The notes under the pieces: generated by a model
Told to the model about the DNA's origin: nothing
Database searches by the model: none
What the model saw: only the letters and a program-made list of their open reading frames with translations
Source: Balneolaceae bacterium
GTDB lineage: Bacteria > Bacteroidota > Rhodothermia > Balneolales > Balneolaceae
DNA: 64,000 nt
Assembly (NCBI GenBank): GCA_009711805.1
Contig: VEMX01000052.1
Coordinates: 44,467-108,466 of the forward strand
Reading direction: 5' to 3'
Translations under genes and position numbers: made by a program
Shown here: piece by piece, positions 28,945-64,000 of the stretch
Numbering within the stretch: position 1 is the first letter of the stretch
Layout of the letters: each line of letters opens with the position of its first letter

Positions 28945-29000
28945 TATGTCTGGTATAGCATTCCACTGACAGCTGAAGACTGAAAGCTGATTGCTGAATA

Positions 29001-39698: not shown

Positions 39699-39763
39699 CT
39701 TAAGTCAGCGCTTGGGCTGTGGTTGAAGCTGAACAATAGGCATCTACTCGCTTTAAGACTTAA
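39699..39763 (+). repeat. 67-bp CTTAAG-ended element, copy 3 (interrupted)
   Basis: CTTAAGTCAGCGCTTG ... CTCGCTTTAAGACTTAA. Its last base and the AGATCT flank continue after the 228-bp element at 39996, so the MITE landed in its right terminus. Confidence 0.65.
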
Positions 39764-39991
39764 CCCGAATTATTCACGAATGGATGCAAAATGGCGATCT
39801 ATATACTTGAATATATTATCGTTGAATTGCTTTATGTAATAGCCCAATTTTGAGGTACGGATTAGGCGGCGAAATTTCCCCGTACGCTGCGTTCAAGTGA
39901 AAATTGGGGTACTCAGGGTACCACAGTACCCTTCCGTTCCCATTTCCACTTCGCCTTGCGTACGATTAAATTTCTTGGTGAATAATCCGGG
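39764..39991 (+). mobile_element. 228-bp MITE-like element, copy 1
   Basis: Termini CCCGAATTATTCACGAA and, inverted, CCCGGATTATTCACCAA (15 of 17 identical). Flanked by TTAA on both sides (39760-39763 and 39992-39995). No ORF. The reverse complement of copy 2 at 55179-55406 is identical at all but three positions. Confidence 0.88.
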
Positions 39992-40006
39992 TTAAGAGAT
40001 CTATGA

Positions 40007-40036
40007 GAATTTCTATTACGAAGCCTCCAACGAGGT
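40007..40036 (+). repeat. 30-bp direct repeat, right copy
   Basis: Second copy of 39532-39561, on the far side of the MITE cluster. Confidence 0.65.
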
Positions 40037-40064
40037 TTGTAGCAGGTAGTATTTAAAATGGTTT

Positions 40065-40988
40065 TCAACCCTCAAGCCACTTGAGCAGATCATTTAATGC
40101 ACGTTCTCTGACTTTTTTTGCGGAAAGAAATATATCGTGGATGGCATTCTTTACCTCGATGAAGGTAACCTTACCCCCAAGCTTTCGGCCGTATTCCTTC
40201 ATATGCTCTACATTCAGCACCATATCAGAACTGCTAAGGCTGTGGTGCCACACGCGATGGTAGGTAGAGGATGAAGAGTGGAGAATTAGAATAGGGCAGG
40301 AAATATCGGAATGTCTCCGAAGATATTCCTGGGCTTTGAACACGGCCGCCACCCATTTTAGATAAGCAGGAAAACCACGGTGTGGTTTCCACCTTTGGTT
40401 TAGCTCCCACTCGCCCCGGGCCGATTTAAGCAGGCTCTGCCCGTAGAGATGAGCCAGGGGTTTATTCCGGGAAGCAAAGGGAAAGAAAAAAGAAAAAACA
40501 CGCGAAAATGTGACAATAAAGCTGCGCTGAAATGAATTTGTATTGAATTCCAGGAAAGGAGAGTTGAGCACTATTTTTTCTATATGGTCTCTGAGTTTAC
40601 CGTCATTAGCATAAAGGCTGGCAAGAAGTCCACCGGTAGAATGACCCAGGAGAATCACCCCTTCTCCGGCATTTTCATCCAGGATAATTTGAATAGAAGC
40701 TGTCAACTCTTCAAAATATTCTTTCATTGAGCGGCAGTAATTCGGATGCTGGTGAGGAAGCAGCGATCGCCCGTACTTCCTGAGATCCAGCGCATAAAAA
40801 TTATAGCCGCCGGTATGTAATGCTTCAGCTACATGCGGATGGAAGAAATAATCACTATATCCATGAATATAAAGGACAGAGGTTTTACCAGAAGTGTTCT
40901 TGGGAGAACGAAGAAGGGTAGCTATTACAGCTCCTTCATAGTCATCCTCCATCTCAAGTTTCTGTTGGCTGAAATCCTCTAATTTCAT
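40065..40988 (-). CDS. Alpha/beta hydrolase (serine aminopeptidase S33-like)
   Basis: 307 residues. Oxyanion region YIHGYSDYFFHPHVAEAL, nucleophile elbow GHSTGG in GVILLGHSTGGLLASL, late acid and histidine in ILHSSSSTYH... and NAIHDIFLSAKKVR. This is the monoacylglycerol lipase/S33 group; substrate unknown. Starts 4 bp after ywbE, so it is the last gene of a three-gene operon. Confidence 0.88.
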   Translation of the reverse strand: MKLEDFSQQKLEMEDDYEGAVIATLLRSPKNTSGKTSVLYIHGYSDYFFHPHVAEALHTGGYNFYALDLRKYGRSLLPHQHPNYCRSMKEYFEELTASIQIILDENAGEGVILLGHSTGGLLASLYANDGKLRDHIEKIVLNSPFLEFNTNSFQRSFIVTFSRVFSFFFPFASRNKPLAHLYGQSLLKSARGEWELNQRWKPHRGFPAYLKWVAAVFKAQEYLRRHSDISCPILILHSSSSTYHRVWHHSLSSSDMVLNVEHMKEYGRKLGGKVTFIEVKNAIHDIFLSAKKVRERALNDLLKWLEG

Positions 40989-40992
40989 ACCA

Positions 40993-41184
40993 TCAACATA
41001 TTTCTTTTACCCGTCCGACCTGACCATCCTGTAACCTGACTTTTATACCATGAGGATGGTTTCTGCTATTGGTAAGAATATCCTGAACTGTTCCATAGGT
41101 GATCTTACCGCTTCGCTGGTCTTTTTTTAGAACAATGCCCACTTTCAGGCCTTGTTTGATATCTGCTCTGTTTGTGCCGTTCAT
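40993..41184 (-). CDS. ywbE: YwbE family protein
   Basis: 63 residues with the complete YwbE pattern: ADIKQGLKVGIVLKKDQRSG, LTNSRNHPHGIKVRLQDGQVGRV. Small conserved cytoplasmic protein, function unknown. Its ATG overlaps the DUF1801 stop by one base. Confidence 0.92.
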   Translation of the reverse strand: MNGTNRADIKQGLKVGIVLKKDQRSGKITYGTVQDILTNSRNHPHGIKVRLQDGQVGRVKEIC

Positions 41185-41609
41185 TAGTTTTCTTCCCTGT
41201 ATCTTTCTTGAATTATTCGAATGGATGATTGGATGAGCTCCTTTAGAACTTCCCTGTTTATATCATCCAGAGATTTGATGTATAAACAGGATTTTGCTGT
41301 TTTATGGGTGCCCAGTTTTTTTAGAAGTTCTTCAAAAGGCTTGAAACCCGAAGTAATATAGATGCTAATAGCCTTCTTTCGGTTCGAAAATCCGGTTAAC
41401 ATCCAGTCTCCTTCCCGTCCGCTTTTGTATGTATAGTGATAACTTCCGTAACCAACAATGCTTTTCCCCCACATGGCATCTTTTTTACCGGTCACCGATT
41501 GCATAAGCTGATGGAGGGCTATACAATCTTTTTTGCGCTGAGGATCTTTTATGCCGTCTAAATAAACCTGTACATCACCGGCATGTCTCTTTGTTTTTAA
41601 TTCTGACAT
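41184..41609 (-). CDS. DUF1801 domain protein
   Basis: 141 residues of the YdhG/DUF1801 fold: VQVYLDGIKDPQRKKDCIALHQLM, AMWGKSIVGYGSYHYTY, FSNRKKAISIYI and LGTHKTAKSCLYIKSLDDIN. Relatives resemble iron-chaperone frataxin-like folds; function is not settled. First gene of the operon with ywbE and the hydrolase. Confidence 0.92.
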   Translation of the reverse strand: MSELKTKRHAGDVQVYLDGIKDPQRKKDCIALHQLMQSVTGKKDAMWGKSIVGYGSYHYTYKSGREGDWMLTGFSNRKKAISIYITSGFKPFEELLKKLGTHKTAKSCLYIKSLDDINREVLKELIQSSIRIIQERYREEN

Positions 41610-41796
41610 GACTTTTTAATGGTATACAATTAAACTTCGGGTTATCACTCTTCATAAGATAGCGTTCTGAAGATAAGATAAAAGCCCTCTTATCTTTCCT
41701 TTGGGCTAAGTTATCACTTTTACATTCCGAAAGTACGCGTAATTTTTGCCTGCTTGTTTAAGCACTTTATCATTCAGTTACTTATACTAAGCAATT

Positions 41797-43032
41797 ATGA
41801 AAAACCCGTTAAAGAAGTATGTGGGTCCAAGTACCCTGGTAGCTGCAGCATTTATTGGTCCGGGAACTGTAACCGTATGTACGCTGGCCGGGGTAAGGTC
41901 AGGCTATATGTTATTGTGGGCGCTCCTGTTTTCTATGATAGCCACCATTGTTTTGCAGGAGATGACCGGCCGCCTGGGTATTGTAAGCCGTAAAGGTTTC
42001 GGAGAAGCAATAAGAGAAGAGTTTAAAAATCCAATATTACGTTATGTAGGGATATTGCTGGTGCTTGGTGCGGTAGTTGTTGGAAATGCTGCTTATGAAG
42101 GGGGAAATATATCGGGAGCAGTATTGGGGATAGAAAGCTTGTATGGCGGCATGGAAGTTGAAATGGGCGGTTTTGTAATACGTTTGTGGCCAGCGGTAAT
42201 AGGAGTGATTGCTTTTACACTACTTTTTACCGGGTCGTTTAAGATTATTTCCACCTTTCTGGTAGCATTGGTTTCTTTGATGAGTATTGTGTTTTTAACT
42301 ACTGCAATTCTCATACAGCCCGATTTTTCAGAGATTTTCAAGGGACTCTTTATTCCCCGGTATACAGAAGGCAGCCTGTTAACCGTGGTGGCCTTGATAG
42401 GAACGACCGTGGTGCCGTATAATTTGTTTTTACACGCTTCTTCAGTACAAGAAAAATATACGCATGTATCTCAGCTATCCGATTTCAGGAAAGAGAATGC
42501 AGTGGGGATTATTACGGGAGGTATCATTTCAATGTGTATTGTAATTACCAGCGCTGCAGCTTTTAACAAAAGTGGGGGAGATATAAGTAATGCCGCAGAT
42601 ATGGCGGTTCAACTTGAGCCTTTACTGGGGGGGTGGGCTACCGCATTTATGAGTTTTGGACTTTTTTCGGCCGGCATTTCATCCGCTATAACTGCGCCTT
42701 TGGCCGCAGGCTATGCCGCACGTGGAGTTTTTGGTTGGGAACATGATCTCACCGACTTTAAATTCAGGTTGGTGTGGATATTAATACTGTTGACTGGAGT
42801 GGTGTTTTCTTCTCTTGGTTTTAATCCTATTCAACTCATAGAGTTTGCACAGCTTGCCAATGGTATTTTACTGCCCTTTATAGCTGTATTCCTGCTTTAC
42901 ATTGTAAACAGAGTTATGGTTCTTGGAGCTAACAGGAATACCACCATACAAAATGTATTCGGTGGGATAGTTGTACTGGTGGCTATTATATTAGGAATGA
43001 AAAGCATTAATGCTGTTTTAAATTTTCTATGA
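41797..43032 (+). CDS. ycsG: Nramp-related transporter of the 5-oxoprolinase operon (YcsG-like)
   Basis: 411 residues with eleven membrane helices in the Nramp/LeuT-like fold. The metal-binding DPGN of TM1 is replaced by G21-P-G-T24 (AAFIGPGTVTVC), and the TM6 MPH motif by V206-P-Y-N (VVPYNLFLHASS). This argues against transition-metal transport. It heads the pxpABC operon, as ycsG does in Bacillus, so an oxoproline- or organic-acid-related substrate is possible but inferred. Its stop overlaps the pxpA start. Confidence 0.88.
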   Translation: MKNPLKKYVGPSTLVAAAFIGPGTVTVCTLAGVRSGYMLLWALLFSMIATIVLQEMTGRLGIVSRKGFGEAIREEFKNPILRYVGILLVLGAVVVGNAAYEGGNISGAVLGIESLYGGMEVEMGGFVIRLWPAVIGVIAFTLLFTGSFKIISTFLVALVSLMSIVFLTTAILIQPDFSEIFKGLFIPRYTEGSLLTVVALIGTTVVPYNLFLHASSVQEKYTHVSQLSDFRKENAVGIITGGIISMCIVITSAAAFNKSGGDISNAADMAVQLEPLLGGWATAFMSFGLFSAGISSAITAPLAAGYAARGVFGWEHDLTDFKFRLVWILILLTGVVFSSLGFNPIQLIEFAQLANGILLPFIAVFLLYIVNRVMVLGANRNTTIQNVFGGIVVLVAIILGMKSINAVLNFL

Positions 43033-43790
43033 TGAAGAAACAGATTGATTTGAATTGCGATTTGGGAGAGTCGTACGGGAAGTATGCTTCTGCTAATGAT
43101 GAGGTTATAATGCCGTATATATCGAGCTGTAATATAGCCTGTGGTTTTCATTCGGGAGATCCCGTTACCATAACCAAGACGATTGCATTAGCCATCGAAA
43201 ATGGAGTGGCTATTGGGGCTCATCCTTCTTATCCGGACTTGCAGGGATTTGGCCGGCGCGTCATGAATATGACGCCCGAAGAGTTGAAAGCCTGTGTAGT
43301 ATACCAAGTATCAGCGCTTAAAGGGATGGCCGAAGCACAGGGAGCTAAGCTTCATCATGTGAAACCACATGGAGCTCTGTATAATCATGCAAGTATAGAT
43401 GAAGCCAGCGCCATAGCTTTTGTTGAGGCCATAGTAGAAGTAAGTTCTGATCTGCTATTGTATGCCCCCAGCCGGTCTAAATTATCGGAGGTTGCCGACA
43501 ATGCAGGAATAAAGGTATGTTGTGAGGTATTCTCTGACCGAAGCTACGACAATAACCTGAGGTTAAGAGCACGCTCGATGGAGGGGGCTGTACTTCATCA
43601 GAAAGAAGAAGTGATCAATCAGTTGAAGATTATGATAGAGGAAGGCGAGGTGGTTACCTATGAGGGGCTTACATTGCCAATAGAAGCTGATACGGTATGC
43701 CTGCACAGCGATACCAAAGGAGCTGAAGAACTGGCAAAAGAGATCCATGCATTTCTTAAATCCATAGATGTTGAAATTACTGCACCTTAA
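43029..43790 (+). CDS. pxpA: 5-oxoprolinase subunit A (LamB/YcsF family)
   Basis: With PxpB and PxpC hydrolyses 5-oxoproline (pyroglutamate) to glutamate using ATP. 253 residues with LNCDLGESYGKY at the N-terminus, SCNIACGFHSGDP, GAHPSYPDLQGFGRR and KPHGALYNHA. ATGATGA overlap with ycsG. The family catalytic residues Asp and His cluster are in place. Confidence 0.95.
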   Translation: MMKKQIDLNCDLGESYGKYASANDEVIMPYISSCNIACGFHSGDPVTITKTIALAIENGVAIGAHPSYPDLQGFGRRVMNMTPEELKACVVYQVSALKGMAEAQGAKLHHVKPHGALYNHASIDEASAIAFVEAIVEVSSDLLLYAPSRSKLSEVADNAGIKVCCEVFSDRSYDNNLRLRARSMEGAVLHQKEEVINQLKIMIEEGEVVTYEGLTLPIEADTVCLHSDTKGAEELAKEIHAFLKSIDVEITAP

Positions 43791-44478
43791 CAATGCTAAA
43801 TGGGAATGTTCGTTCCTGGGCGAACAAGCCCTGTTATTAACATCCGCAGTGGGTGATGATACTGCTATTGAGGTTATTCATTCATCAACCTACATGCTGA
43901 ACCATGCAAATATTTTCGGTATGGTCGATATTATCCCGGCTTATCAAAGTATAGCTTTGGTTTATGATCGCCTGTTGGAGAGCTTGGATCAGGAAATCAG
44001 TCGGATAGAAAGCCAGATTTCTGACAAGAGTATAACTATGCCTGATCCCGCCAAACACCGGCTGCCCGTTTGCTACGAAATGGGACTCGACTGGAAGGCG
44101 GTGGAAGATCATACAGGCCTGCCGAAAGATGCTATAATTAAGTATCACCTGAATGGAAATTATATAATAGCCATGATGGGTTTTATTCCCGGTTTTATTT
44201 ATTTAAGCGGCTTGGATAAAAAAATACATTGCCCGCGCAGGGAAAATCCAAGAATAGAAATTCCGGCGGGTGCAGTAGGTATTGGTGGAAGCCAGGCAGG
44301 AATGTATTCCCTAAAAAGTCCGGGCGGCTGGCAGATTATAGGACAAACTCCTCATTCCTTCTTTAATCCGCGGGAAATTCCTCCTGTAAAAGTAAAAGCA
44401 GGAGACCGGTGTGTATTTGAAAGAATAACCGAGGCCGAATTTAGAAAAATCCGGGAAGGGGTGAACCATGATCGGTAG
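43768..44478 (+). CDS. pxpB: 5-oxoprolinase subunit B (KipI family)
   Basis: 236 residues. AHS1/KipI pattern: EALLLTSAVG-like start, LPVCYEMGLDWKAVEDHTGL, and the strongly conserved MMGFIPGFIYLSGLD with PRIEIPAGAVGIGGSQAGMY. In Bacillus, KipI also inhibits the sporulation kinase KinA, which is not relevant here. Overlaps pxpA by 23 bp and pxpC by 11 bp. Confidence 0.94.
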   Translation: MLKLLHLNNAKWECSFLGEQALLLTSAVGDDTAIEVIHSSTYMLNHANIFGMVDIIPAYQSIALVYDRLLESLDQEISRIESQISDKSITMPDPAKHRLPVCYEMGLDWKAVEDHTGLPKDAIIKYHLNGNYIIAMMGFIPGFIYLSGLDKKIHCPRRENPRIEIPAGAVGIGGSQAGMYSLKSPGGWQIIGQTPHSFFNPREIPPVKVKAGDRCVFERITEAEFRKIREGVNHDR

Positions 44479-45400
44479 CCTGACGGTAAATGACGGAGGA
44501 CTTTTTACCACTATACAAGATGGGGGCAGGTCCGGGTACCGCAAGTATGGAATTCCGGTGTCTGGTGCAATGGATACTCATAGTTGGAAGCTCGCCAACT
44601 GGCTGGCGGGGAATCCCCTTGATACCCCGATATTGGAAATGACTCTGAAGGGCGGAGTGTATGAGTTCAATTCGCAGGCGGTGATAGCCATTGCAGGTGC
44701 TGAAATGAAGCCGGAAATAAATGGTGAAAAAGCACCAATGTACAAGACAATTCAGGTGCAGCACGGAGATAAATTACAACTGGGATATTGCCGAAAAGGT
44801 TGTAGAAGTTATCTTGCCATTCAGGGAAAGTGGGAGATAGACAAAATGATGGGGAGCTATTCTACCTATACACCAGGTGTATTTGGAGGTTTGAAAGGAC
44901 GGGTATTTAAAAAAGGAGATCGGCTTCAATGGCAATCTGCTAAGTTTAAGGGGGACAGGGAAATTGACCGGAAGTTAATCCCGCATTTTGCAAGTAGTAA
45001 TACGCTGAGGGTAATTAAAGGGCCGGAATTTGATTGGATGAATCCGCAGGAGCAAAAGCAGTTTTTGGGTATGACCTATATGGTAAGCGCAGAGAGTAAC
45101 CGCATGGGAATTCGACTGAAGGGAGAAGAAAAGCTGGAAGTTTCATCCAGGCAAATGAGTTCATCGGCAACCCTGCCGGGAGTAGTTCAGTTACCTCAAA
45201 GCGGTCATCCGGTTATACTGGGTAAAGATGGGCAAACTGTAGGCGGCTATCCCAGGATAGCTAAAGTTGTTGAAGCAGACATGTGGAGGGTGGGGCAATT
45301 GCCGCCATCCTCATATGTAGGGTTTAAACTGATAGATATAGAAGAAGCAAAAGCATTGAAAGAATATCAGCAAGCATTGTACAGAGAAAATCTGAAATAA
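44468..45400 (+). CDS. pxpC: 5-oxoprolinase subunit C (KipA family)
   Basis: 310 residues. Biotin-dependent carboxyltransferase-like AHS2 domain: GLFTTIQDGGRSGYRKYGIPVSGAMD, AGAEMKP, YLAIQGKW, then GPEFDW and GVVQLPQSGHPVILGKDGQTVGGYPRI. Completes the PxpABC enzyme. No terminator is evident downstream. Confidence 0.95.
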   Translation: MIGSLTVNDGGLFTTIQDGGRSGYRKYGIPVSGAMDTHSWKLANWLAGNPLDTPILEMTLKGGVYEFNSQAVIAIAGAEMKPEINGEKAPMYKTIQVQHGDKLQLGYCRKGCRSYLAIQGKWEIDKMMGSYSTYTPGVFGGLKGRVFKKGDRLQWQSAKFKGDREIDRKLIPHFASSNTLRVIKGPEFDWMNPQEQKQFLGMTYMVSAESNRMGIRLKGEEKLEVSSRQMSSSATLPGVVQLPQSGHPVILGKDGQTVGGYPRIAKVVEADMWRVGQLPPSSYVGFKLIDIEEAKALKEYQQALYRENLK

Positions 45401-45681
45401 AGCTTATTATTTTATCACATTTTCCGATAGACTAAAAACAGTATCAGGTGGTACAACCAAATGATTAATTTAAACAAACGAATGTTGCTATATTTTCGCT
45501 TTAATATATTAAAGGGGGTTTGTTTCAGTATTCCGCATCCGGAAAGTTCTTATAAACAAAAAAAAATTGGGTTGAGGTTTTTTTTAAAAAGTGATATTTA
45601 AAGATAGTTATTCAAAAAAAGGGTCAAATAGATAAAGAGTTATCCATATCGTTCATTGCCGGGGCTGTATTTAGCTGCATT

Positions 45682-47505
45682 GTGATAATAGCATGGTTTA
45701 TTAATTATAATAAGATTGTTGAGGGTAGAAAACGGCAAGTAGAAGTGACCGGAAAATTCGCAAGCCAACAGATGGAGGTGGCGATCAGTGATAATATTCG
45801 TACGCTCAATAATATTACTTCCCGGATAGAGTATACGGAAGGCGACTATTTTGATAATTGGCAGAATGATGCCAGGATGATGATTGCTCAGGAACCCGCT
45901 TTCAAATTTATGGAATGGATTGATCATGAAATGATTATTCGGGAAGTGGTTCCTTTTGAAGAAAACCATGCGGCCCTGGGGCTGGATATTGGAAATTTGG
46001 ATTACCGGCGCCCTGATTGGTTGGCTACTAAAAGAGATTCAGTCACTAACATCACCCATTGGATAGAATTGGTGCAAGGTCGGTTTGCTTTTCTGATTGA
46101 TGCTCCCATCTATTTTAAAAATAATTTTTATGGCACTATTACAGCCGGATTGGATTTCCAGGAGCAATTTGATGATATCATGCTTGGCTGGGAAATGTAT
46201 CATGTTGAACTGGAGGATGAGAAGGGAAATGTGTTCTACAAGTTTGGTCAACATGAAGGAACTGAAGAGTATATGGAGTATATGTATGAAACATCTATCT
46301 CCGTTTTAGATAGTGAAAAACAAAACTGGGCTTTCAGGATTGTACCTAACGATCAATTCTTCTCGGTCCAAAAACTTTCCAGTGAAAAGCTAAACCTCAT
46401 CCTGGGCCTCATACTCTGTTTCTCATTATCAGTTGTGCTGTTCTATATGCAGAAATCTTTAAAAGCACAGAAAAAGTATAAGAGTTCTAGTTTCAAACTC
46501 CGTTCTTTGATCGATTCTTCGCCAGTGGCTATATATGTAATTAACCCAAAAGGGCGTGTTATCGATTTCTGGAATACCGCAGCCGAAGAAATGTTGGGAT
46601 GGAAAAAAGATGAGGTTATGGGAAAATACCTGCCCCATGTTTTTAGAGGTTCAGAAGAATTGTTTGGGCAGATTATGAGCGATCTTGGAAGAGGCAAGCA
46701 GATAAAAGAAATGGAATTGACGGCCAGCCGAAAAGATGGTTCTGAAATACCCGTCCGCTTAAATGTGGGGCATTTGATTTCGGAAGGCGAGGAAAACCAG
46801 ATGTTAGTGCTATTGGAAGATATGAGCCTGCAGAAAGAAATACAGAGAAAATTGAAAGTATCACTTTCTGAAAAGGAAGTTCTGCTTACTGAGGTACACC
46901 ATCGCGTAAAAAATAATCTGGCTATTATTACCGGGCTTATTGAATTGCAGATAGGAGAAGTTGAAGATATACTTTTGAGGGGGATGCTGAAAGAAACCCA
47001 GAATCGTATTTATTCCATAGCAGGAGTACACGAGTTATTATATGATACAACCAGCTTTACCAATATCAGCCTGGAGGAATATGTGAAAAAGTTACTGGAT
47101 CGAATGCGTCTGATGTTTGAAGAGGAAGAGGTAAATGTTGAAATATTACAGGAGTTGGAGGTGAGCAGCATTAATATTAACCAGGCAATTCCCCTGGGAC
47201 TTATGCTGAATGAACTGGTCTCAAATTCATATAAACATGCGTTTAAGACGATTGAGGAAGGCTGTATACGGCTCGTAGTCTATCAAGCGGATAATATTGT
47301 GAGTGTTCAGTATTCTGATAATGGAGAAGGCTTCGACCTCAATGAATTTAACAGTTCCAATGCGCAGGGACTTATGATTATAAAAACACTTCTTCAACAG
47401 CTAAAGGCAGCGTATGAAGTGGATACAACCAATGGTTTTGAACTGAATTTTAATTTTCAGATGCAGAAAAAAGGAGCTCATTCTAACTGGAAAGCAGAAG
47501 CATAG
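45682..47505 (+). CDS. CHASE-like/PAS sensor histidine kinase (HisKA_2 type)
   Basis: 607 residues from a GTG: extracytoplasmic CHASE-like sensor (about 20-240), second membrane helix (about 245-262), PAS domain (about 275-395, SSPVAIYVINPKGRVIDFW), HisKA_2 domain with EVHHRVKNN (H406/H407), and an HATPase with N-box LNELVSNSYKHAF and DNGEGFDL. The first membrane helix continues upstream of the GTG in an open frame without ATG, GTG or TTG, back to a TGA near 45592. So the true start is unclear: a rare start codon, or a frameshift. No response regulator is adjacent. Confidence 0.88.
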   Translation: MIIAWFINYNKIVEGRKRQVEVTGKFASQQMEVAISDNIRTLNNITSRIEYTEGDYFDNWQNDARMMIAQEPAFKFMEWIDHEMIIREVVPFEENHAALGLDIGNLDYRRPDWLATKRDSVTNITHWIELVQGRFAFLIDAPIYFKNNFYGTITAGLDFQEQFDDIMLGWEMYHVELEDEKGNVFYKFGQHEGTEEYMEYMYETSISVLDSEKQNWAFRIVPNDQFFSVQKLSSEKLNLILGLILCFSLSVVLFYMQKSLKAQKKYKSSSFKLRSLIDSSPVAIYVINPKGRVIDFWNTAAEEMLGWKKDEVMGKYLPHVFRGSEELFGQIMSDLGRGKQIKEMELTASRKDGSEIPVRLNVGHLISEGEENQMLVLLEDMSLQKEIQRKLKVSLSEKEVLLTEVHHRVKNNLAIITGLIELQIGEVEDILLRGMLKETQNRIYSIAGVHELLYDTTSFTNISLEEYVKKLLDRMRLMFEEEEVNVEILQELEVSSININQAIPLGLMLNELVSNSYKHAFKTIEEGCIRLVVYQADNIVSVQYSDNGEGFDLNEFNSSNAQGLMIIKTLLQQLKAAYEVDTTNGFELNFNFQMQKKGAHSNWKAEA

Positions 47506-47572
47506 AAGTCAGGCATCTTATTTTTAGCCCGCATAAAAACCCCGAAGAAGGCATCCCGGCAACTGGAAGCCA

Positions 47573-48178
47573 TTATCGGTGGGTCCAGTCGTCGCTATCA
47601 CTGCTATTGGGAGAGGTTCCAAGTGTCTCTCCATTGATGTGGACACCCAGCCCCAACACAGTGCGGTTTACATAATTGAAGTAGGAAGTGACCTGATTGA
47701 TTTCAAGAATCTGGCCGTCATCTAATCCGGCTTCTTTTAAATGTGTAATATTTGATTCATTAATTCCGGAAACAGATAGAGTGAGTGTTTTGGCATATTC
47801 AAGCCCTGAGAGATGTGGTTCATCGAATACTTCTTCCAATTGCTCATTTTCGAAAGCGGTTCGGATAAGGGCGGCTTTATCCTCATCTCCGTTTAGTCCG
47901 CGTCTGAGTCCTACATAGTGATGCTCTACGCAATAGCTGCATTTATTCAACATGCTCACATATACCCCAATTGCCTCCAGGTACCACTTGGGCAGAGAAT
48001 TGCCGGTGTGATGCAGCACGTTCTTATAGAGTGCCATATGCCCCTGCAGGGAATGAGGACGCAAACTGTGAATCTTTAAGACATTATCAACCTGCCCGTT
48101 TGGTCCGGAAATTTGTTTATAGATCCGTTTGAGTTTTCCTTCAGCTTGTTCTTCGTCAATTACCTGAATCCAGCTCAT
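47573..48178 (-). CDS. Peroxidase-related (AhpD-like) carboxymuconolactone decarboxylase family protein
   Basis: 201 residues. AhpD-fold redox motif C80-S-Y-C83 followed by VEHHYVGLRRGL (conserved His), and a YFNYVNRTVLGLG end. Members of this uncharacterised peroxidase-related group likely use the two cysteines to reduce peroxides. Single gene. Confidence 0.88.
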   Translation of the reverse strand: MSWIQVIDEEQAEGKLKRIYKQISGPNGQVDNVLKIHSLRPHSLQGHMALYKNVLHHTGNSLPKWYLEAIGVYVSMLNKCSYCVEHHYVGLRRGLNGDEDKAALIRTAFENEQLEEVFDEPHLSGLEYAKTLTLSVSGINESNITHLKEAGLDDGQILEINQVTSYFNYVNRTVLGLGVHINGETLGTSPNSSDSDDWTHR

Positions 48179-48271
48179 AGTACCCTGTAGTTGGTTTTAG
48201 TTGTCTCAAATTAGTTTATGGTAAACAAGAGTCCGTTGGTTTCACTCACCCCACCCCCTGCTGTCAGGATA

Positions 48272-48760
48272 TTAGTTTTGAATCAGCATGGCACTGATGA
48301 CTTCCTGTACGATCTGTCCCATACCAATAATCCCGATGGTCTTTCCATACAGTCTATCCGCTTTACTGTAGATGGCTTTATTCCAGCTTCCGTTTCGGAA
48401 ACCACTCACGTTATCAGCGATGAAACGGTCGAGTGAGAGGATAAGCCCCAGTGTCAATTCTGTAACTGCAATAGAGTTTTTGCCGCCGCGGTTTGCAACG
48501 TAGATACCAGAATTACTGGCCGCTTCAATGTTGATATTATTGACCCCCGCACCGGCGCGGATAATCATCATTAACCGTGGACTGTTTTTGATGCAGGTTT
48601 CACTTACAACAGTGGACCTGACAATAAGAATGTCCGTGTCTCCAAGTCCTTGGTTTAAATCGCCTGCCTTGGCCTTGGGATCGAAATTAACCTCCAGGCC
48701 AAGTTGTTTTAATTCATCTGTCGCCTGCTGCGGGAGTTTGTCGGCAACAAAAACAGTCAT
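48272..48760 (-). pseudogene. 5' fragment of a phosphoglycerate dehydrogenase (SerA-like) gene
   Basis: 162 residues matching only the N-terminal substrate domain and the start of the NAD domain of D-3-phosphoglycerate dehydrogenase (IIRAGAGVNNINIEAAS, GIYVANRGGKNSIAVTELTLGL). It ends with GKTIGIIGMGQIVQEVISAM, losing the rest of the Rossmann fold, the active-site Arg/Glu/His and the regulatory part. 94 bp of unrelated sequence follow before the next gene. A truncated remnant; a second, intact serA would be expected elsewhere. Confidence 0.85.
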
Positions 48761-49331
48761 CTCTATTCTCTATTTAATTAAGATTGATCAATTCCAGTCA
48801 TAATGTAATCATCCCCAGATTAAGAGAACAGCCGGATTTGTCAATGATAAAGTACCTTGATCAGGTATTACCAAATTTAATATTTTGGTAATGATGAAAA
48901 AGCATTTTCTGGGAAAATCATGTTTGCTATCAGCGCTTCTGAATGTGTATCCAAAAACCACTTCCTCAAAAGACTCGTGGAGCAACCTCCGAGAGATTCT
49001 ATTGTCTTTCCTATTATTCGGGCGGAGGTTTTTGTTTGTAGGTTTGTTCCCCCGGGGTTATTCATAGTTGTACTGCTTTGCAGTAAGGACGGAGAACTTG
49101 TCCTCGTTTTTGCTCGTCCGAAATTCTGGTTATTCCTTGCAAGTGGAGGGGGGGGATTGGTTTTCTATTTTATTCTTAAATCAAAGAGTCATTCAGATCC
49201 CGAGGATGAATCCTTATGTTATTCAAAAACCTCCAAGGTTTTCTCTTATTGGTTAGATATGGTTAGTTTTGCTATGTGCAAAACCTTGGAAGTCTCGAAG
49301 CTTGGTACTTTTTTTCGTACGAAACTCCGGC
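48761..49331. other. Intergenic region with degenerate repeats
   Basis: 571 bp with no gene I can support; the frames at 48877-49345 are short and mutually overlapping. It holds GGGGTTATTCATAGTTGTACTGC (49053-49075, also at 60762), a CTTAAATCAnnGnnTCATnCAGA segment (49177-49250, similar to 51480-51540) and split ACCTCCAAGG palindromes (49226-49296). Confidence 0.55.
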
Positions 49332-50849
49332 TTATCCACCCATAATCATGCGGGCCATAAGTTGTACTGTAAGAGCCAGCCCTTTAATACCGCTTGCATT
49401 GTCTTTCACATACGTTTTAAATGATTCCAGCTCATCATGGGTATAAACGCCGCCATTATACACAAGGCGGTCTATATTCCTGATGTTATTGATGTCCGCC
49501 AGCGGGTTCCCGGAGAGAATCACAAGGTCAGCCATTTTTCCTGTTGTCACGGAACCATAGTCGGCGGTGGCCTCAAAATACTCTGCCGGGGTTTGTGTAG
49601 CAGCTACCAGTGCTTCGGCGGGAGTTAAACCGGCTTTAACCAGTTCCTCAAGCTCATCATGTAAACTCAACCCAGGGAATACATAGGTATCGTTGGCATC
49701 GGTACCGGCCAGTACTTTTACTCCGGCATCATGGGCTTTTTTGGTGAGCTCCAGTCCCTTTTTGTAGAAATCGATTTGGGTCTGTGTTTTTGCTTCCCCT
49801 TTAGCATACTCGGCCATTTCATCCGCATCTTCCTGCCAGCCTTTATTCTGAGCCATAAGAATATACTTCAATCGTTCGTCATCTCTGTAATCCTCATCGT
49901 GGGCATAGGCATCCATCTTGCGGGTTAGGTGAGTAGGGACGTAATAGGTGTTGTAGGCGATCATAGTGTCCGCAATCTGGTAAAATATACTGTCACTGAA
50001 CTGGTCTATCATTTCCTGTTTTCTTGCAATAGACATAACCGGGCCGGCATTTTCATCCCTGTTACCCTGGTAGGCATCTTCATAATCTTGTCGCAATTGT
50101 TCACTTCCCGGATAACTGTTGTAAAGGAAAAACCGGGCGTGTTCAAAACTCTTATGGCCCAGTTGTGCAGCTTTAATGGGACTAACGGCCCGGGGCAGAT
50201 GTCCCGCAAAAGTAACTCCGTACTTGTTGGTTTGTGAGGCAATGGTTTCAAGCATATCATTTTGTACGCCACTGTACACTTTCAGGAAAAGCCCGGATTC
50301 TTGCTTAGCTGATGCGATAAATAGTTCAAGCTCTTTTTCACTAAAATTAAAGCCCGCCATATCTTGCGCATAGGCGCCTATCCGGGGGCTTAAAAGTGTT
50401 TGTTGTTCGATAGCCGATTTCCATTCCTGCATAGGTACTGTAGACTCAATGAACCCCATATCTCTGATTCCGGTAACCCCCGCGGCTATGTACAGAGGCA
50501 TATATAATTGAGGGGCTGTTTTTACACCAATATGACTGTGCATATCCCACAGGCCGGGGATAACATATTTTCCTGCCCCGTCAATAATTTCGACATTTTG
50601 CGGAGGGGTTGATTCATCTGCGGGGGTGATGGATATAATGCGTTTACCTTCAATTAAAACAGATTGGTTGGGAATGAGAGTGTCCTCAACAGCATCTACA
50701 ATAGTGGTGTTTTGAATGTATATAGGATTGGTTGATACATTGGGAGTGATGGGGGAAGGTTCCGGCCAAAGTGCCAGGACAATTAAAACAACCAGCACAA
50801 CAAGCAACAGTGATGATATGATTTTGAAGAATGCTTTAAAATATTTCAT
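49332..50849 (-). CDS. Amidohydrolase family protein, membrane-anchored
   Basis: 505 residues: N-terminal membrane anchor (about 10-27), then a metallo-dependent amidohydrolase of the imidazolonepropionase/prolidase-like group. Metal motif H104-S-H106 in GLWDMHSHIGV, GVTGIRDMG, GVTFAGHLPRAVSP, and the late AGTDANDTYVFPG followed by LTPAEALVAATQTPAEYF. Likely acts outside the cytoplasm on an imide or dipeptide; substrate unknown. Confidence 0.92.
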   Translation of the reverse strand: MKYFKAFFKIISSLLLVVLVVLIVLALWPEPSPITPNVSTNPIYIQNTTIVDAVEDTLIPNQSVLIEGKRIISITPADESTPPQNVEIIDGAGKYVIPGLWDMHSHIGVKTAPQLYMPLYIAAGVTGIRDMGFIESTVPMQEWKSAIEQQTLLSPRIGAYAQDMAGFNFSEKELELFIASAKQESGLFLKVYSGVQNDMLETIASQTNKYGVTFAGHLPRAVSPIKAAQLGHKSFEHARFFLYNSYPGSEQLRQDYEDAYQGNRDENAGPVMSIARKQEMIDQFSDSIFYQIADTMIAYNTYYVPTHLTRKMDAYAHDEDYRDDERLKYILMAQNKGWQEDADEMAEYAKGEAKTQTQIDFYKKGLELTKKAHDAGVKVLAGTDANDTYVFPGLSLHDELEELVKAGLTPAEALVAATQTPAEYFEATADYGSVTTGKMADLVILSGNPLADINNIRNIDRLVYNGGVYTHDELESFKTYVKDNASGIKGLALTVQLMARMIMGG

Positions 50850-51042
50850 AAGAAGTGGTTAGTTATATTTCAGGAGGGGTATTATTTATTGAATAATCAA
50901 AACCTCTTTTCCCCGGTTAACGCATTAAGCCAACGGGATTCACTTTTAATAGTTACAAATACTGATTGGGATATCCATAAAAGAAACAGATAAAATAAGA
51001 TTCATTTTTTGAGATAACAGAAGCCCGGTTTACATTCCTCTT

Positions 51043-51396
51043 ATGATTCATCTTGTCCTGCATGTTATAGTCCCCCTGGCAGTGGCGGTTATATTCTACC
51101 GTAATAACTGGCAGCGGGCTTTCCTCATTATGATAATGACCACAGTTATAGACGCCGACCATTTACTTGCTACCCCGGTGTACGATCCTGCCCGGTGCTC
51201 CATAGGATTTCATCCCCTGCATACCATTCCTGCTATTGTTGTTTATGTGATGCTGTTTGCACTACCGCTGTTTTTTAAAAGCAAAGGGGAGGAGCAAGTT
51301 GCTAAAAACCGGCAGGTAGTTACAGTTAAAATTATGCATCTGGCAGGAGCCGGTTTACTTATCCACATGGCTCTTGATTGGATGGATTGTTGGTGA
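51043..51396 (+). CDS. DUF6122 family membrane protein
   Basis: 117 residues, three or four helices. Conserved DADHLLATPVYDPARCSIGFHPLH (Asp/His cluster after helix 2) identifies the DUF6122 family; a late HMALDWMDC supports it. The clustered Asp and His suggest metal binding, but no function is known. Single gene. Confidence 0.85.
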   Translation: MIHLVLHVIVPLAVAVIFYRNNWQRAFLIMIMTTVIDADHLLATPVYDPARCSIGFHPLHTIPAIVVYVMLFALPLFFKSKGEEQVAKNRQVVTVKIMHLAGAGLLIHMALDWMDCW

Positions 51397-51611
51397 TAAG
51401 GCCCGGCTCACACATCCCTCGCATGCCGCAGACATCCCCACGGGAGATGGTGGCTTAAGTTGGGTTTCTTTTTTTTATTCTTAAATCAACGCATCATCCA
51501 GAACGAGTCCCCGAAGGGATGCCAAGGCAGATGAATCTTCTTATGCTCTGCCCCGGCTGGTATTTCCTTTGGGATGGTTGAGTTGAATAGATTGCATGCT
51601 ATAGTCTTTCG

Positions 51612-52568
51612 TTAGTTTTCTTCAAGTACAAACTCCGTCCACACAAAGCCATGATCGGAGGGAAAGCTGAATGATTTTCCCCGGTAGTTGATGCTGTCGT
51701 TATAATCTACTTTATGAATTTCAGATACCACAGGCATCAGTCGGCTGCTTTTGAATAAGAGGTAGTCGATGCGGTGGTCGTCCTGTTCTCCGGGAAGTCC
51801 CCACGAGATGCCCGGATACTGCGCCGGATCAGGTTTTATAATACGATAGCTATCCTGCAGGCCTTCTTCCTCAAAACGGGAGGTAGTCCACCAGGGCACT
51901 ATTTTTCCAGAATGTTGATCTTTGGTGGCTTCAGTCCAATCCAGGTGAGACCATACATTGAAATCGCCGCCGAGAATCACCGGGAGGTTCTCCGTGTTAT
52001 TCAGATAAGGGATAAGATGGTTTAAAATGGTATTAACTTCATTTTCCCGGCTTCCCGAGCGTTCCCATTCAACCAGTTCACGGGGAGTTTTATCCAGCAG
52101 CTGGGGTTGGTTTTTCCAGGGTTGATAATTGAGCCAGGTATTAAACACGAGAATTTTTTCATCATCCCCCAGCATGATTTCAATTCCACCTACATTGAAA
52201 TAGCGGTAGAAATCTACCCGCTCTCCAAAGGGAAAACGACTTAGTATAGATAAATTGGTAGCCGCATGATCCGCTTTGGTACCCGGCTCATCGATCAGGT
52301 GAAAATAATAGCCCAAGGAATCAGCAATACGTTTGCCCGATCCATAGGTCTCAATCATTAAAACAATATCCGCTTCCGAGGCCTTGATAATCCCAACGAC
52401 ATCATCGACACCGTCCCGCTCTATAGTATCACTCTTCCCCCCATGCCAGATATTCCAGACCATGACCGAAAAAGAAATTTCGGATTGACGGTTTTGGGCA
52501 TACCCCGATTTCTGAGGCAGAATAAATGAAAGAAGCAGAACAGAAGTAAGAAGAATGTTTTTAACCAC
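51612..52568 (-). CDS. Endonuclease/exonuclease/phosphatase family protein, secreted
   Basis: 318 residues with a signal peptide (about 1-24). EEP fold: VMVWNIWHGG, VLMIETYGS (catalytic Glu), GGDFNVWSHLDW, HRIDYLLFKSS and SDHGFVWTEF (catalytic His). The fold covers nucleases, sphingomyelinases and phosphoinositide phosphatases; substrate cannot be told from sequence. Single gene. Confidence 0.9.
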   Translation of the reverse strand: MVKNILLTSVLLLSFILPQKSGYAQNRQSEISFSVMVWNIWHGGKSDTIERDGVDDVVGIIKASEADIVLMIETYGSGKRIADSLGYYFHLIDEPGTKADHAATNLSILSRFPFGERVDFYRYFNVGGIEIMLGDDEKILVFNTWLNYQPWKNQPQLLDKTPRELVEWERSGSRENEVNTILNHLIPYLNNTENLPVILGGDFNVWSHLDWTEATKDQHSGKIVPWWTTSRFEEEGLQDSYRIIKPDPAQYPGISWGLPGEQDDHRIDYLLFKSSRLMPVVSEIHKVDYNDSINYRGKSFSFPSDHGFVWTEFVLEEN

Positions 52569-52679
52569 AGCCGATATAATATAGTATAGTAGTTAATGAT
52601 TTGAGTAAGAAACTAATCATTTCGGTGTGAGGAAGGAAATGGTGGAGTTGGTTATGGGGATACCAATAAATCACCCCAC

Positions 52680-52716
52680 AAAAAAAGCCTGATGAATAAA
52701 TATCCATCAGGCTTGA
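52680..52716 (-). terminator. Hairpin next to the tRNA-Leu-derived fragment
   Basis: 10-bp stem AAGCCTGATG / CATCAGGCTT with an A-run on the plus strand, so a T-run on the minus strand. It sits after the tRNA 3'-end fragment as a tRNA terminator would. Confidence 0.75.
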
Positions 52717-52724
52717 TGTTGAAT

Positions 52725-52742
52725 GTGCCCAAGGGGAGACTT
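52725..52742 (-). repeat. Duplicated 3' end of tRNA-Leu
   Basis: TGTGCCCAAGGGGAGACT matches the 3' end of the intact tRNA at 52845-52862 exactly, about 120 bp away. The sequence right of it diverges into a CCCGC/GCGGG hairpin. Either the remains of a second tRNA-Leu or an attachment-site duplication. Confidence 0.65.
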
Positions 52743-52799
52743 CCCGCTTCGAACACTTCGCGGGACAGGCTTCTCGTCTCCTGTTGCAGGTAGCCAAAT

Positions 52800-52832
52800 A
52801 AAAACCCCGATATCCAAATGAATGCCGGGGTT
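52800..52832 (-). terminator. Terminator of tRNA-Leu
   Basis: Stem AACCCCG / CGGGGTT; on the minus strand a T-run follows. Confidence 0.8.
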
Positions 52833-52845
52833 AAATTACTTGATG

Positions 52846-52928
52846 TGCCCAAGGGGAGACTCGAACTCCCACGTCTGAAAGACATACGCACCTGAAGCGC
52901 ACGCGTCTACCAATTCCGCCACTTGGGC
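52846..52928 (-). tRNA. tRNA-Leu (anticodon CAG)
   Basis: Read on the minus strand: 7-bp acceptor stem GCCCAAG / CTTGGGC, D-arm TGGCGGAATTGGTAGACGC, anticodon loop TTCAGGT (CAG), a long variable arm ATGTCTTTCAGACGT typical of leucine tRNAs, T-arm GGAGTTCGAGTCTCC and discriminator A. 83 nt; CCA is not encoded. Confidence 0.92.
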
Positions 52929-53175
52929 ATTTTTTAACCATCAAAAAAAGAAAGCAGTATACCAAAAAGGAAGGCTACTTTTGAAAGCGAACCCAAAATA
53001 CAGCTTTCATTGAACAGAATCATTTTTTGATTGCATAAAATTGCATTTTCTCTAACCTTTGTTGTTTTCCGGAGTGTGCATTAACGAAACAAAACAGTTG
53101 ATAAGGCTGATGGCTTGCACATCGTATTTTTAGTCATCATATTCCCGCCGGAATATTTTTAAATAAACGTAATGT

Positions 53176-54972
53176 ATGAAGAACTTTTTTGCGACTCTTT
53201 TTCTGACTTTTCTGACTTTTTCACTTTCTGCCCAAACGGCCACCCAATATGAAATTTCATTTGATAATACGGTACATCACGAAGCCGAAATCAGTATCAC
53301 CTATGCGAACCTGGAGGATAAGGTGCTGGAAGTTCGGATGAGCAGAACATCACCGGGCCGGTATGCGCTGCATGAATTTGCCAAGAATGTATATGCCGTA
53401 AAAGCTTATGACAGTCAGGGTGATGAGCTTATGGTAAGTCGTCCCAATCCCCACCAATGGAATGTACACGGGCACGATGGCACTGTCCGGTTTGAGTACA
53501 CCTTGTATGCCAACCGAGGCGGCGGAACCTATGCCCAGGTAGACGAAACCCACGCTCATCTGAATATCCCGGCAACATTTGCATGGGCACGGGATTATGA
53601 GCACCGGCCGGTGAAAATCACTTTTAATGTGAGAGAAGATCTGAACTGGAAAGTGGCTACCCAGCTCAAGCATCTTGAAGGGAATACCTATTACGCTCCG
53701 GATTTATACTACTTCATGGATAGTCCTACCGAGATTGCCGACTTCCATCTGCGGGAGCAAATGATTGACGGACAAAACATCCGGTTGGCCCTGCACACTC
53801 CGGCAACCGATGCAGAAGTGGATACCTATTTTGATAAAGTGATCGCCATCGTTAAAGAACAGGCTGAGGTGTTCGGGGAACTTCCTGATTTTGATTATGG
53901 GGAATACACCTTTTTGTCTTGCTATATGCCCAATGCCAGTGGCGATGGGATGGAACACCGCAACTCCACTTATGTAGTAAGCTCAAAACCACTCGACCGT
54001 CCCTTGGGAGGAACCAGCCTGGGCACCATTTCGCATGAGTTTGTGCATGCGTGGAATGTAGAACGAATACGCCCGGCCAGCCTGGAGCCTTTCGATTTTG
54101 AGGAAGCCAATATGAGCGGTGAGCTTTGGTTTGCTGAAGGGTTTACCAGCTATTATACTGGTCTGATATTGGAACGTGCAGGCTTGCGAACCGCGCAACA
54201 GTATATAGAAGGATTAGATGGCGGGCTGAATTATGTAATTAATTCCCCGGGAAGGAAGTTTTTTAACCCCATTGAGATGAGTTATCAGGCTCCGTTTGTG
54301 GATGCAGCTACTTCGGTAGATCCCCAGAATAAGAACAATACTTTTATTTCATATTATACCTACGGCAGCGTGCTTGGGCTGGCCCTGGATCTGTCATTAC
54401 GCCAGATGGATAACGGTTTGAACCTGGATGATTTTATGAAGTTGATGTGGAAAGAGTTTGGGAAAACGGAAGTACCATATACCGTCCGTGATATAGAAGC
54501 GACCCTGGCCGATTATGCCGATGAGGATTTCGCCGCTGAGTTCTTTGAGAGATACATTTTTGACAGTCAGGTTCCTGACTATAAAAATCTGCTTGTCAGT
54601 GCGGGCGTTGTTTTCGAACGGGCAAATCCTGATAAGGCTGTACTGGGTTCCCGGATTCGTATTGGGGATGATGGTATCGGAACCCTTGGGAGCAATGCTG
54701 TGATGGGATCTCCAATTTATAAAGCAGGTATTGAATCAGAGGATAAGATCATTTCTATAGCCGGAACCAGCTTAAGTGAAGTAGAAAATGTGGATGAAAT
54801 CCTGGCAGATTATAAACCCGGGGATCAGGTTGAAATTACGTACAGCCGATGGGGAACAGAAAAAACCGTTGAGCTAACTTTGGCTGCAAACAAAAACTAC
54901 CAAACACGCTTGGATGAGAATGCTTCTTCTTCAGCTAAAGAGAGAAGAGCAAAGTGGCTCTCGGGTGAGTAA
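53176..54972 (+). CDS. M61 family peptidase with PDZ domain, secreted
   Basis: 598 residues with a signal peptide (LTFFTFSLSAQ-type). M61 glycyl-aminopeptidase layout: N-terminal beta domain, thermolysin-like core with HEFVH at 287-291 (TISHEFVHAWNVERIRP) and the third zinc ligand in LWFAEGFTSYY, and a C-terminal PDZ domain (GSPIYKAGIESEDKIISIAG). Exported zinc aminopeptidase; natural substrate unknown. No operon partner. Confidence 0.93.
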   Translation: MKNFFATLFLTFLTFSLSAQTATQYEISFDNTVHHEAEISITYANLEDKVLEVRMSRTSPGRYALHEFAKNVYAVKAYDSQGDELMVSRPNPHQWNVHGHDGTVRFEYTLYANRGGGTYAQVDETHAHLNIPATFAWARDYEHRPVKITFNVREDLNWKVATQLKHLEGNTYYAPDLYYFMDSPTEIADFHLREQMIDGQNIRLALHTPATDAEVDTYFDKVIAIVKEQAEVFGELPDFDYGEYTFLSCYMPNASGDGMEHRNSTYVVSSKPLDRPLGGTSLGTISHEFVHAWNVERIRPASLEPFDFEEANMSGELWFAEGFTSYYTGLILERAGLRTAQQYIEGLDGGLNYVINSPGRKFFNPIEMSYQAPFVDAATSVDPQNKNNTFISYYTYGSVLGLALDLSLRQMDNGLNLDDFMKLMWKEFGKTEVPYTVRDIEATLADYADEDFAAEFFERYIFDSQVPDYKNLLVSAGVVFERANPDKAVLGSRIRIGDDGIGTLGSNAVMGSPIYKAGIESEDKIISIAGTSLSEVENVDEILADYKPGDQVEITYSRWGTEKTVELTLAANKNYQTRLDENASSSAKERRAKWLSGE

Positions 54973-55178
54973 TCAAAAAGGCAGAGGGCAGAAGTGAAAG
55001 GTGAAAAGATTTCTGTCCCCAAAACAGATCGAGCCTAATCTCCGGAGAAGAGCATAACCTTTATCATCATCAGAGCGGAGGTTTGTTCTTGATTGACCAT
55101 TTCCCTTGGACTCCGCTCGAGGTTATTGCTGACATCCCCTTGGGAGTGGATTCAGAAAGGTTTTATTAACGCATCTAA

Positions 55179-55406
55179 GCCGGATTATTCACCAAGAAAT
55201 TTAATCGTACGCAAGGCGAAGTGGAAATGGGAACGGAAGGGTACTGTGGTACCCTGAGTACCCCAATTTTCACTTGAACGCAGCGTATGGGGAAATTTCG
55301 CCGCCTAATCCGTACCTCAAAATTGGGCTATTACATAAAGCAATTCACCGATAATATATTCAAGTATATAGATCGCCATTTTGCATCCATTCGTGAATAA
55401 TTCGGG
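55179..55406 (-). mobile_element. 228-bp MITE-like element, copy 2
   Basis: Same length as copy 1 and in the opposite orientation, three differences. Flanked by CTAA on both sides (55175-55178 and 55407-55410). The TTAA and CTAA duplications both fit YTAR. Confidence 0.88.
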
Positions 55407-55415
55407 CTAAGCCAA

Positions 55416-63352: not shown

Positions 63353-63877
63353 ATGCTTTTCCCAAAAGAAATAATTGAACAGACCACACATAGCCTGGCC
63401 GTACGACATACTATAAGGTCTCAAGTTCTCTATACCCTGACGATATGTTTTATGGTGGGTATATTTGCAATGCTTCCCTTTATTAAGGTAGATGTAAGTG
63501 TGAAAAGTGGTGGAATTATCCGGTCTGCAACAGAACGACAGGTTCTCAAGGTTCCTGTTACTGGGATTGTCTCCGATTATACAATTCATGAAAATAAAAC
63601 CGTTCAAAAAGGGGAGTTGCTTGTAGCCATGGAAGCAGAAGATGTGGAACAAAGCATCCGCTATAATCAACAGAAGCAGGAGGCAATTCGTGAATATATC
63701 TGGGACTTAAGATCAATCAAAAGGAGATTAGTTGACGATATTGCAATTTCACTGAACACTCCTCTATACCGTTCAGAATGGCTGGCTTTTGAACAGGAAA
63801 GAACAGACTTGATAGCAATGGTACGCAATACTGAGTCTGAGTATCTGCGACAGAAGCAGCTTTATGAGAAAGACCTA
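63353..63877 (+). pseudogene. HlyD-family export adaptor, interrupted by IS630-like element
   Basis: Membrane fusion protein for type 1 secretion of GG-leader peptides. Shows LFPKEIIEQTTHSLAVRH, a membrane helix (about 25-47), the IKVDVSVKSGGIIR strand, the lipoyl half VPVTGIVSDYTIHENKTVQKGELL and the first coiled-coil helix, ending at YEKDL. The frame continues into unrelated sequence (stop at 63980-63982). The remaining half is expected after the IS. Unless a second copy exists, export is disrupted. Confidence 0.8.
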
Positions 63878-64000
63878 GTGTCAAGTCAAGTATGTAATGT
63901 CGGTATAAAGTTGTATCTTAAAAGAAACTGCTATGACTTCCTACCATGTCACTCTTACCGACCAAGAACGCTCCCAGCTTGAGGCTATAAAATCCAAGGG
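63878..64000 (+). mobile_element. Left end of an IS630-like insertion sequence
   Basis: Sequence after a TA at 63876-63877 breaks the hlyD frame and leads into a transposase start 55 nt on. IS630 elements insert at TA. The exact left edge is uncertain; TA at 63891 is the other candidate. Right end outside the window. Confidence 0.6.
63933..64000 (+). CDS. IS630 family transposase, N-terminal fragment
   Basis: ATG at 63933; 22 residues in the window, MTSYHVTLTDQERSQLEAIK followed by SK, matching the very conserved IS630 transposase start (VTLTxxERxxLExxI). Continues past the edge. Confidence 0.72.
   Translation, partial: MTSYHVTLTDQERSQLEAIKSK

Follow-up and report, generated by a model that had tools for sequence, protein, structure and literature searches.

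Miniature inverted-repeat transposable elements (MITEs) are usually seen as internal deletions of insertion sequences (IS), with an inside that is not worth keeping. Those described in prokaryotes, such as ERIC, RUP, BOX, SPRITE and Nezha, are, in the parts of the sources consulted, small, folded and mostly intergenic, with inverted ends and a target duplication (PMC10969869; PMC3049150), and SPRITE is enriched near convergent 3' ends (PMC3049150). Here we describe a 228-bp MITE with the same features, found in two copies in a 64,000-nt stretch of DNA from a Balneolaceae bacterium (GCA_009711805.1, VEMX01000052.1, positions 44,467 to 108,466 of the forward strand), hereafter the window, to which all coordinates refer. 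Unlike the known MITEs, it has a core that covaries across an order, the Balneolales, and that is common to hairpins without the element's ends; the string "covaria" does not occur in the main texts, as far as consulted, of the two sources above. We consider it likely that the element is moved by an IS1380-family transposase. The predicted hairpin within it, conserved and covarying, is also present in distant bacteria that lack the ends and probably acts as a folded RNA (or a single DNA strand) and not as a transposon end.

The closest transposon family is IS1380 (NF033539/PF13701), whose members in the same class or order have the similar terminal motif CC(C/T)GNATT(A/T)(T/C)TCA, mostly beside YTAR; unlike them, the MITE is without a transposase gene and has 10 to 13 of the first 14 bases in common with them. 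Neither IS1380 nor IS701 is mentioned in the consulted portion of one review of prokaryotic MITEs (PMC10969869), and the literature searched, outside which most subscription journals lay, yielded no previous description of a MITE linked to IS1380 or of any MITE in Balneolales. In animals, piggyBac inserts at TTAA, with the variants TTAG, CTAA and GTAA, and has mostly CCC ends, IS1380 being its outgroup in the part of the work consulted (PMC10813416). piggyBac is a eukaryotic system, and we take this agreement in target and ends as a likeness only.

The conserved hairpin inside and outside the element

When the element was used as a DNA query, 28 of 146 genomes, the source genome included, had matches, mostly to the right half, in which the structured core occupies about 108 of the 228 bp. 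By a filter on model positions (start 1–5, end 224–225), 55 of the 68 loci from relatives were complete; 47 of them measured 225–228 bp and 33 had identical 4-bp flanks. The candidates scored numbered at most 5 per genome for the DNA query and, for the two models introduced below, at most 13 (R1, class), 8 (R1, phylum) and 10 (R2, phylum), so that the copies counted per relative are lower bounds.

The core is predicted to fold into a long hairpin. RNAalifold, applied to 20 aligned elements that included both window copies, gave 47 pairs, 23 of them with double changes that keep the pairing. In a larger set of 42 Balneolales elements, left after removal of rows at least 90% identical and including the source genome, the bases pair in 93.2% of the 1512 pair cells of the structure on the opposite strand; double-change cells number 226, against a mean of 71.9 in shuffled alignments (none of the 500 shuffles was as high), and are spread over 25 of the 36 pairs (shuffled mean 16.8). 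Related sequences can exceed shuffles in such a tool even when there is no structure; such an artefact is argued against by the 25 pairs with double changes and by the slid controls, in which displacement of the partners by 1–3 columns lowers pairing to 33.7–46.7%. Two internal loops contribute unpaired bases to the most strongly conserved positions.

Neither the element nor any other hairpin tested matched an Rfam 15 family above its gathering score; the families over threshold (tRNA, Acido-Lenti-1 and Phe_leader) all lay beside hairpins or elsewhere. In particular, this Balneolales genome has an Acido-Lenti-1 RNA (RF01687) at 28900–28945 of the window, with 40.4 bits against a gathering score of 37.

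A covariance model of the Balneolales elements (R1) matched 41 of the 244 genomes of the class, of which 38, the source genome included, belong to the order and 3 to one other family, and 18 of 394 genomes sampled from the phylum. Within the Balneolaceae, weak R1 matches in two genomes (G024 and G060) have decayed or unrecognisable ends. A second model (R2) was built from 12 hairpins outside Balneolales, with no Balneolales sequence in it; the end motif, with up to 2 mismatches, was found within 120 bp of none of the 12. R2 matches all 20 Balneolales loci given, and in the 64-kb window the two MITE copies are its only matches up to E 10. In the phylum it matches 63 of 394 genomes, often in several copies: 12 in the order, 4 in the family f10 and 47 in the family f28, the last two not being independent, because they supplied 11 of the 12 R2 sequences. 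IS1380-type ends were seen within 60 bp of none of 20 R2 loci. We thus have good confidence in a predicted hairpin common to the MITE and to other lineages.

Many of the hairpins outside Balneolales are enclosed in longer inverted arms: at 19 of 20, the fold continues for at least 10 outer pairs, and at 15 of the 20 a run of A precedes and a run of T follows. In the loci L326–L343 (f28 genomes) and L319–L322 the hairpin is often central in longer, locus-specific inverted arms, as if a palindrome or terminator already in place had received it in its loop. One genome, G140, has 8 hairpins with E values of 0.5 or less; a tandem group of three (G140:C1:477458-477834, L312) runs head to tail at about 120-bp spacing and is without IS1380 ends. 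In another family of the class, an R2 hairpin (L283:1255-1337, 37.9 bits) adjoins an IS701-like element.

Similar hairpins extend beyond the phylum. A blastn search of plasmid records with one outside hairpin returned 22 records, E. coli, Aeromonas and Comamonas among them; a second outside hairpin had no match in the plasmid records. The Comamonas locus is independently matched by R1 at 35.6 bits. The loci of E. coli and Aeromonas are missed by R1 and matched by R2, at 36.0 and 32.6 bits in E. coli, 30.8 bits in Aeromonas and 23.2 bits in K-12. These are not independent support, because they were found by similarity to a member of the R2 alignment, or are the K-12 counterpart of such loci. 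Of 5426 genomes, 5375 have the E. coli form, at a median of 5 places. It is, as in Aeromonas, a multicopy intergenic hairpin (for example, between pheM and pheS) with a similar tip, GGA..GTAC....GTAC..GAG; unlike in the MITE, IS1380-type ends were not seen. It may perhaps be boxC. In the portion of the source consulted, boxC measures 50–56 bp and has 22–32 copies (PMC2267715). Two ERIC primer sequences fit the E. coli loci only with 6–7 errors.

Copies, ends and empty sites

The window belongs to contig 9 of a 4.08-Mb draft genome in 99 contigs. The initial annotation, made from the letters of the window, had described two 228-bp copies in opposite orientation with three differences, with ends CCCG(A/G)ATTATTCAC(G/C)AA and 4-bp duplications TTAA and CTAA, and we verified all of this, including both sides of each duplication; the inverted ends are 17 bp long and imperfect, and the outermost base of the right end of copy 2 is altered. 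The features are as follows.

39764..39991, plus strand: MITE copy 1, 228 bp, left end at 39764
39760..39763: TTAA, target duplication on the left side of copy 1 (sequence)
39992..39995: target duplication TTAA, right of copy 1 (sequence)
39764..39780, plus strand: left inverted end of copy 1, CCCGAATTATTCACGAA (sequence and genome pattern search)
39975..39991, minus strand: right inverted end of copy 1, CCCGGATTATTCACCAA in minus-strand reading (sequence)
39841..39977, minus strand: predicted structured core of copy 1, model R1, 128.9 bits (copy 1 is itself among the Balneolales elements of R1)
39872..39971, minus strand: predicted hairpin of copy 1, model R2 (no Balneolales sequence in the model), 52.2 bits, E 6e-14
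55179..55406, minus strand: MITE copy 2, 228 bp, left end at 55406
55175..55178: target duplication CTAA (TTAG on the element's strand) of copy 2 (sequence)
55407..55410: target duplication CTAA, other side of copy 2 (sequence)
55390..55406, minus strand: left inverted end of copy 2 (sequence)
55179..55195, plus strand: right inverted end of copy 2, GCCGGATTATTCACCAA, with an altered first base (sequence)
55193..55329, plus strand: predicted structured core of copy 2, model R1, 126.2 bits
55199..55298, plus strand: predicted hairpin of copy 2, model R2, 49.7 bits, E 4e-13

Elsewhere in the window, by eye, an open reading frame (ORF) at 48272–48760 resembles a shortened 2-hydroxyacid dehydrogenase, and one at 63353–63982 a shortened HlyD-type secretion protein.

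Searched genome-wide, as the initial annotation had proposed, the 17-base left-end pattern has 84 matches, far beyond chance, and the reversed pattern none. With end pairs of more than one mismatch excluded from placement, gene-orientation and flank counts, 73 copies of all lengths, 62 of them at least 200 bp long, could be placed among genes. Copy 1 is 100% identical to two further genomic copies, which head its match list. A length of exactly 228 bp is shared by 55 copies; 48 of these lie between identical 4-bp flanks, most commonly TTAA (33) and TTAG (11), and the mean divergence of the 55 from their consensus is 1.1%, which points to a recent burst. Three contigs (C11, C23 and C47) each end exactly 196 bp into a copy; the assembly therefore seems to be interrupted by copies, of which there are probably more than were counted.

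Hairpin-free forms of 83/84 bp occupy six sites, five of them with identical 4-bp flanks. In 9 of 11 copies of 44–105 bp the hairpin was lost at microhomologies of 1–5 nt, the other two aligning poorly to the full element. Since the junctions show microhomology, deletion in place is equally likely, and the 84-bp class does not demonstrate that transposition can do without the hairpin. A further element of 298 bp (G000:C28:14309-14606; L002:622-919) has similar ends (TTAA/TTAG) with one mismatch per end and a different, partly GC-rich inside; it represents another subfamily and may use the same transposase.

Empty sites occur within the same genome, in a second repeat of about 550 bp with two insertion sites. 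Site 1 (TTAG) is occupied in L012, L018 and L021, site 2 (TTAA) in L007, L039, L043, L095 and L105; L048 is without the element at either site. Site 2 is empty in L012, L018, L021 and L052, and site 1 in L007, L039, L095 and L105, the empty forms carrying a single TTAG or TTAA; the sequence of site 1 is missing from L043 and from the truncated L052. The duplications of L043 and L105 contain one extra T. There were at least two insertion events, spread through copying of the ~550-bp repeat, because a single insertion is common to the three site 1 loci, and the five site 2 loci may likewise go back to one. The repeat itself (L048:807-1355; also L007, L012, L018, L021, L039, L095 and L105) has the ends GGTACTT(A/C)CCC, apparent 8-bp duplications, by eye, in L018 and L105, and a longest stop-free stretch of 145 codons; its copies are 93–97% identical to L048.

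The view of a recently active MITE moved in trans is thus backed by copy number, target duplications, empty sites and the 1.1% divergence; there is, as noted beforehand, no ORF, 228 bp being too short for a transposase. Outside this genome, the 24-base right-end pattern was found, among named genomes, in 32 stretches, all from Balneolia, Balneolales or Balneolaceae metagenome-assembled genomes or from Fodinibius roseus (a cultured carrier, DSM 21986) and F. salsisoli. A 21-base right-end pattern had no match in viral contigs, copy 1 none in plasmids and the element of a relative (L066) none in phages.

Possible roles of the hairpin

The hairpin probably serves a purpose independent of the mobile element, because its predicted shape is conserved across the order and it is present without mobile ends in distant bacteria. 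We hold with moderate confidence that it may work as a folded RNA in read-through transcripts; it would have been taken up between IS1380-type ends before the order diversified, and transcription would come from outside the element, because the single promoter-like match is no better than shuffles give and lies beyond the hairpin. The strand predicted to fold is likely the one opposite to the left-to-right orientation of the initial annotation. R1 scores only 19.1 bits on the other strand of copy 1, as against 128.9 on the minus strand; among the pairs common to the structure models of both strands, A-C cells outnumber G-T cells by 80 to 28 on the strand of the initial annotation, the A-C cells being G-U on the opposite one; and single-sequence folds are better on that strand in 4 of 4 elements.

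Several observations weigh against this reading. A sign test over pairs gives a weak strand signal (15 vs 9, p 0.31), and the inferred events favour the strand by 47.5 to 25.5, but the ends lean likewise, 7 to 2. In single copies of the source genome, variant alleles per site are 0.306 in the core and 0.256 in the left part, and 15 of 24 stem changes break a pair. Orientation relative to the neighbouring genes shows no clear bias over 100 copies (32 vs 25, p 0.43), nor in the source genome alone (20 vs 10, p 0.10). As constraint is not visible on single copies, any selection would have to concern source copies or a small functional subset.

It is rather unlikely that the hairpin acts as DNA, as an aid to excision or target choice or as a structure recognised by another recombinase, and persists because source copies that have it succeed. 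Constraint seen between genomes and not among the copies of one burst agrees with this, as do the outer pairs at 19 of 20 outside hairpins, many inside longer inverted arms. Against it, the R1 core is in none of 28 loci with the IS1380-type transposase domain PF13701, so that this transposase family seems not to need the core; the hairpin-free forms at six sites, five with identical flanks, point the same way, although they may be in-place deletions.

We judge it unlikely that the hairpin is functionless, its paired changes arising neutrally through template switching at imperfect palindromes that copies one arm onto the other. The absence of constraint among copies within the genome suits such a process, and so does the instability of the palindrome, 9 of 11 copies of 44–105 bp being hairpin-less. 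Neutral copying would erase mismatched loops; instead, the GGA/GAG loop and the unpaired sides CAAGGC and AACGCAG persist throughout the order and outside it, and hairpins that lack the ends have these loops too.

Less probable still is a host-useful 3'-end element, a terminator or transcript stabiliser, with the MITE tolerated where genes converge. Convergent genes flank 29 of the 100 copies and divergent genes 8, and the A- and T-runs flank 15 of 20 hairpins outside Balneolales; on the other hand, no terminator-like site was found at copy 1, and avoidance of promoters alone would give the same placement.

The transposase and the place of the element

The IS701 family uses YTAR targets, and the initial annotation had proposed it as the driver. 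The end motif is found with IS1380 instead: it occurs 15 times in the 29 PF13701 loci examined, one of these being a neighbouring MITE (L208), against 1.55 in base shuffles. PF13701 has matches in 22 of 146 genomes, the source genome included, and exceeds its cut-off in 19. As L226 overlaps L210, 28 loci are distinct, and with L208 (MITE end) and L217 (CAGA flank) left out, the motif is in nine (L202–L205, L207, L210, L212, L214 and L216), eight of which have a YTAR tetranucleotide at one end or both; L210 has ATAG.

The model NF033539 confirms L203, L204 and L205. L203 is a complete 1702-bp IS1380 element that scores 349 bits (cut-off 180). Its ends CCTGCATTTCTCACAAA are perfect, and it lies between two CTAG tetranucleotides, the only identical duplication among the motif-bearing loci. 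Both ends are readable in L202, L203 and L205, with unequal flanks in L202 and L205, and one end in L204. L204 and L205 have 13 of 14 end bases in common with the MITE, L202 and L203 only 10–11. There are two main end types, ATTATTCA and ATTTCTCA, and MITEs and IS1380 elements each show both; within three genomes (G066, G076 and G082) they agree in end type (ATTATTCA or TTTCTCA), and in G066 a decayed IS1380 element coexists with the MITE.

We consider it likely, from these ends and flanks, that the MITE is moved in trans by a transposase of the IS1380 family into YTAR-type 4-bp targets. We infer the driver, because no IS1380 transposase over the cut-off is present in this 99-contig draft assembly, in which PF13701 has two weak matches below it. 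This weighs against the assignment, together with the MITEs of other end types in G082 (L262, L264 and L265), the IS1380 elements with other ends in G019, G095 and G111, and the fact that 6 of the 9 genomes with a matching IS1380 element (G009, G014, G079, G114, G117 and G118) are not among the 41 R1-hairpin genomes. Tblastn with L203 and L204 (E 0.01) found no IS1380 fragments in the fetched loci of the source genome and the window. The two sub-cut-off matches (L060 and L061), without such ends and by eye IS4-type transposases, were rejected. The full insertion sequence with matching ends that the initial annotation had proposed to look for exists as IS1380 elements in relatives of the same order, none having been found in the source genome; together with the empty alleles, this is the opposite of the double absence that had been named beforehand as contrary to the proposal. 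Dependence on IS701, which would call for an IS701 element with CCCGRATTATTCAC ends, agrees with the 4-bp duplications of YTAR type and is very improbable, with no PF13546 match in this genome, PF13546 in only 12 of 146 genomes, and, among 15 of the 27 loci listed in relatives, the end motif (up to 1 mismatch) occurring twice (0.8 in shuffles), beside ACGT and AATT and never beside a YTAR tetranucleotide.

A broader picture, which we put forward tentatively, is that of a pan-bacterial folded module (loops CAAGGC/AACGC and GGA/GAG), present in E. coli-type enterobacteria, betaproteobacteria and this phylum, which might have been captured between IS1380 ends in Balneolales and carried as MITE cargo for the lifetime of the order. 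It would be a bacterial counterpart of the short interspersed nuclear elements (SINEs), that is, a structured non-coding RNA on a borrowed transposase.

In this MITE, unlike in the usual view of such elements, the predicted shape of the inside persists across an order; the IS1380 loci searched did not contain it, and it has matches among distant hairpins that lack the ends. IS1380, the outgroup of piggyBac in the consulted parts of two papers, is here likely tied to a MITE burst. If the hairpin is a functional RNA, it would represent a family outside Rfam 15 that has been spread by transposition, and the covariance models make this family searchable.

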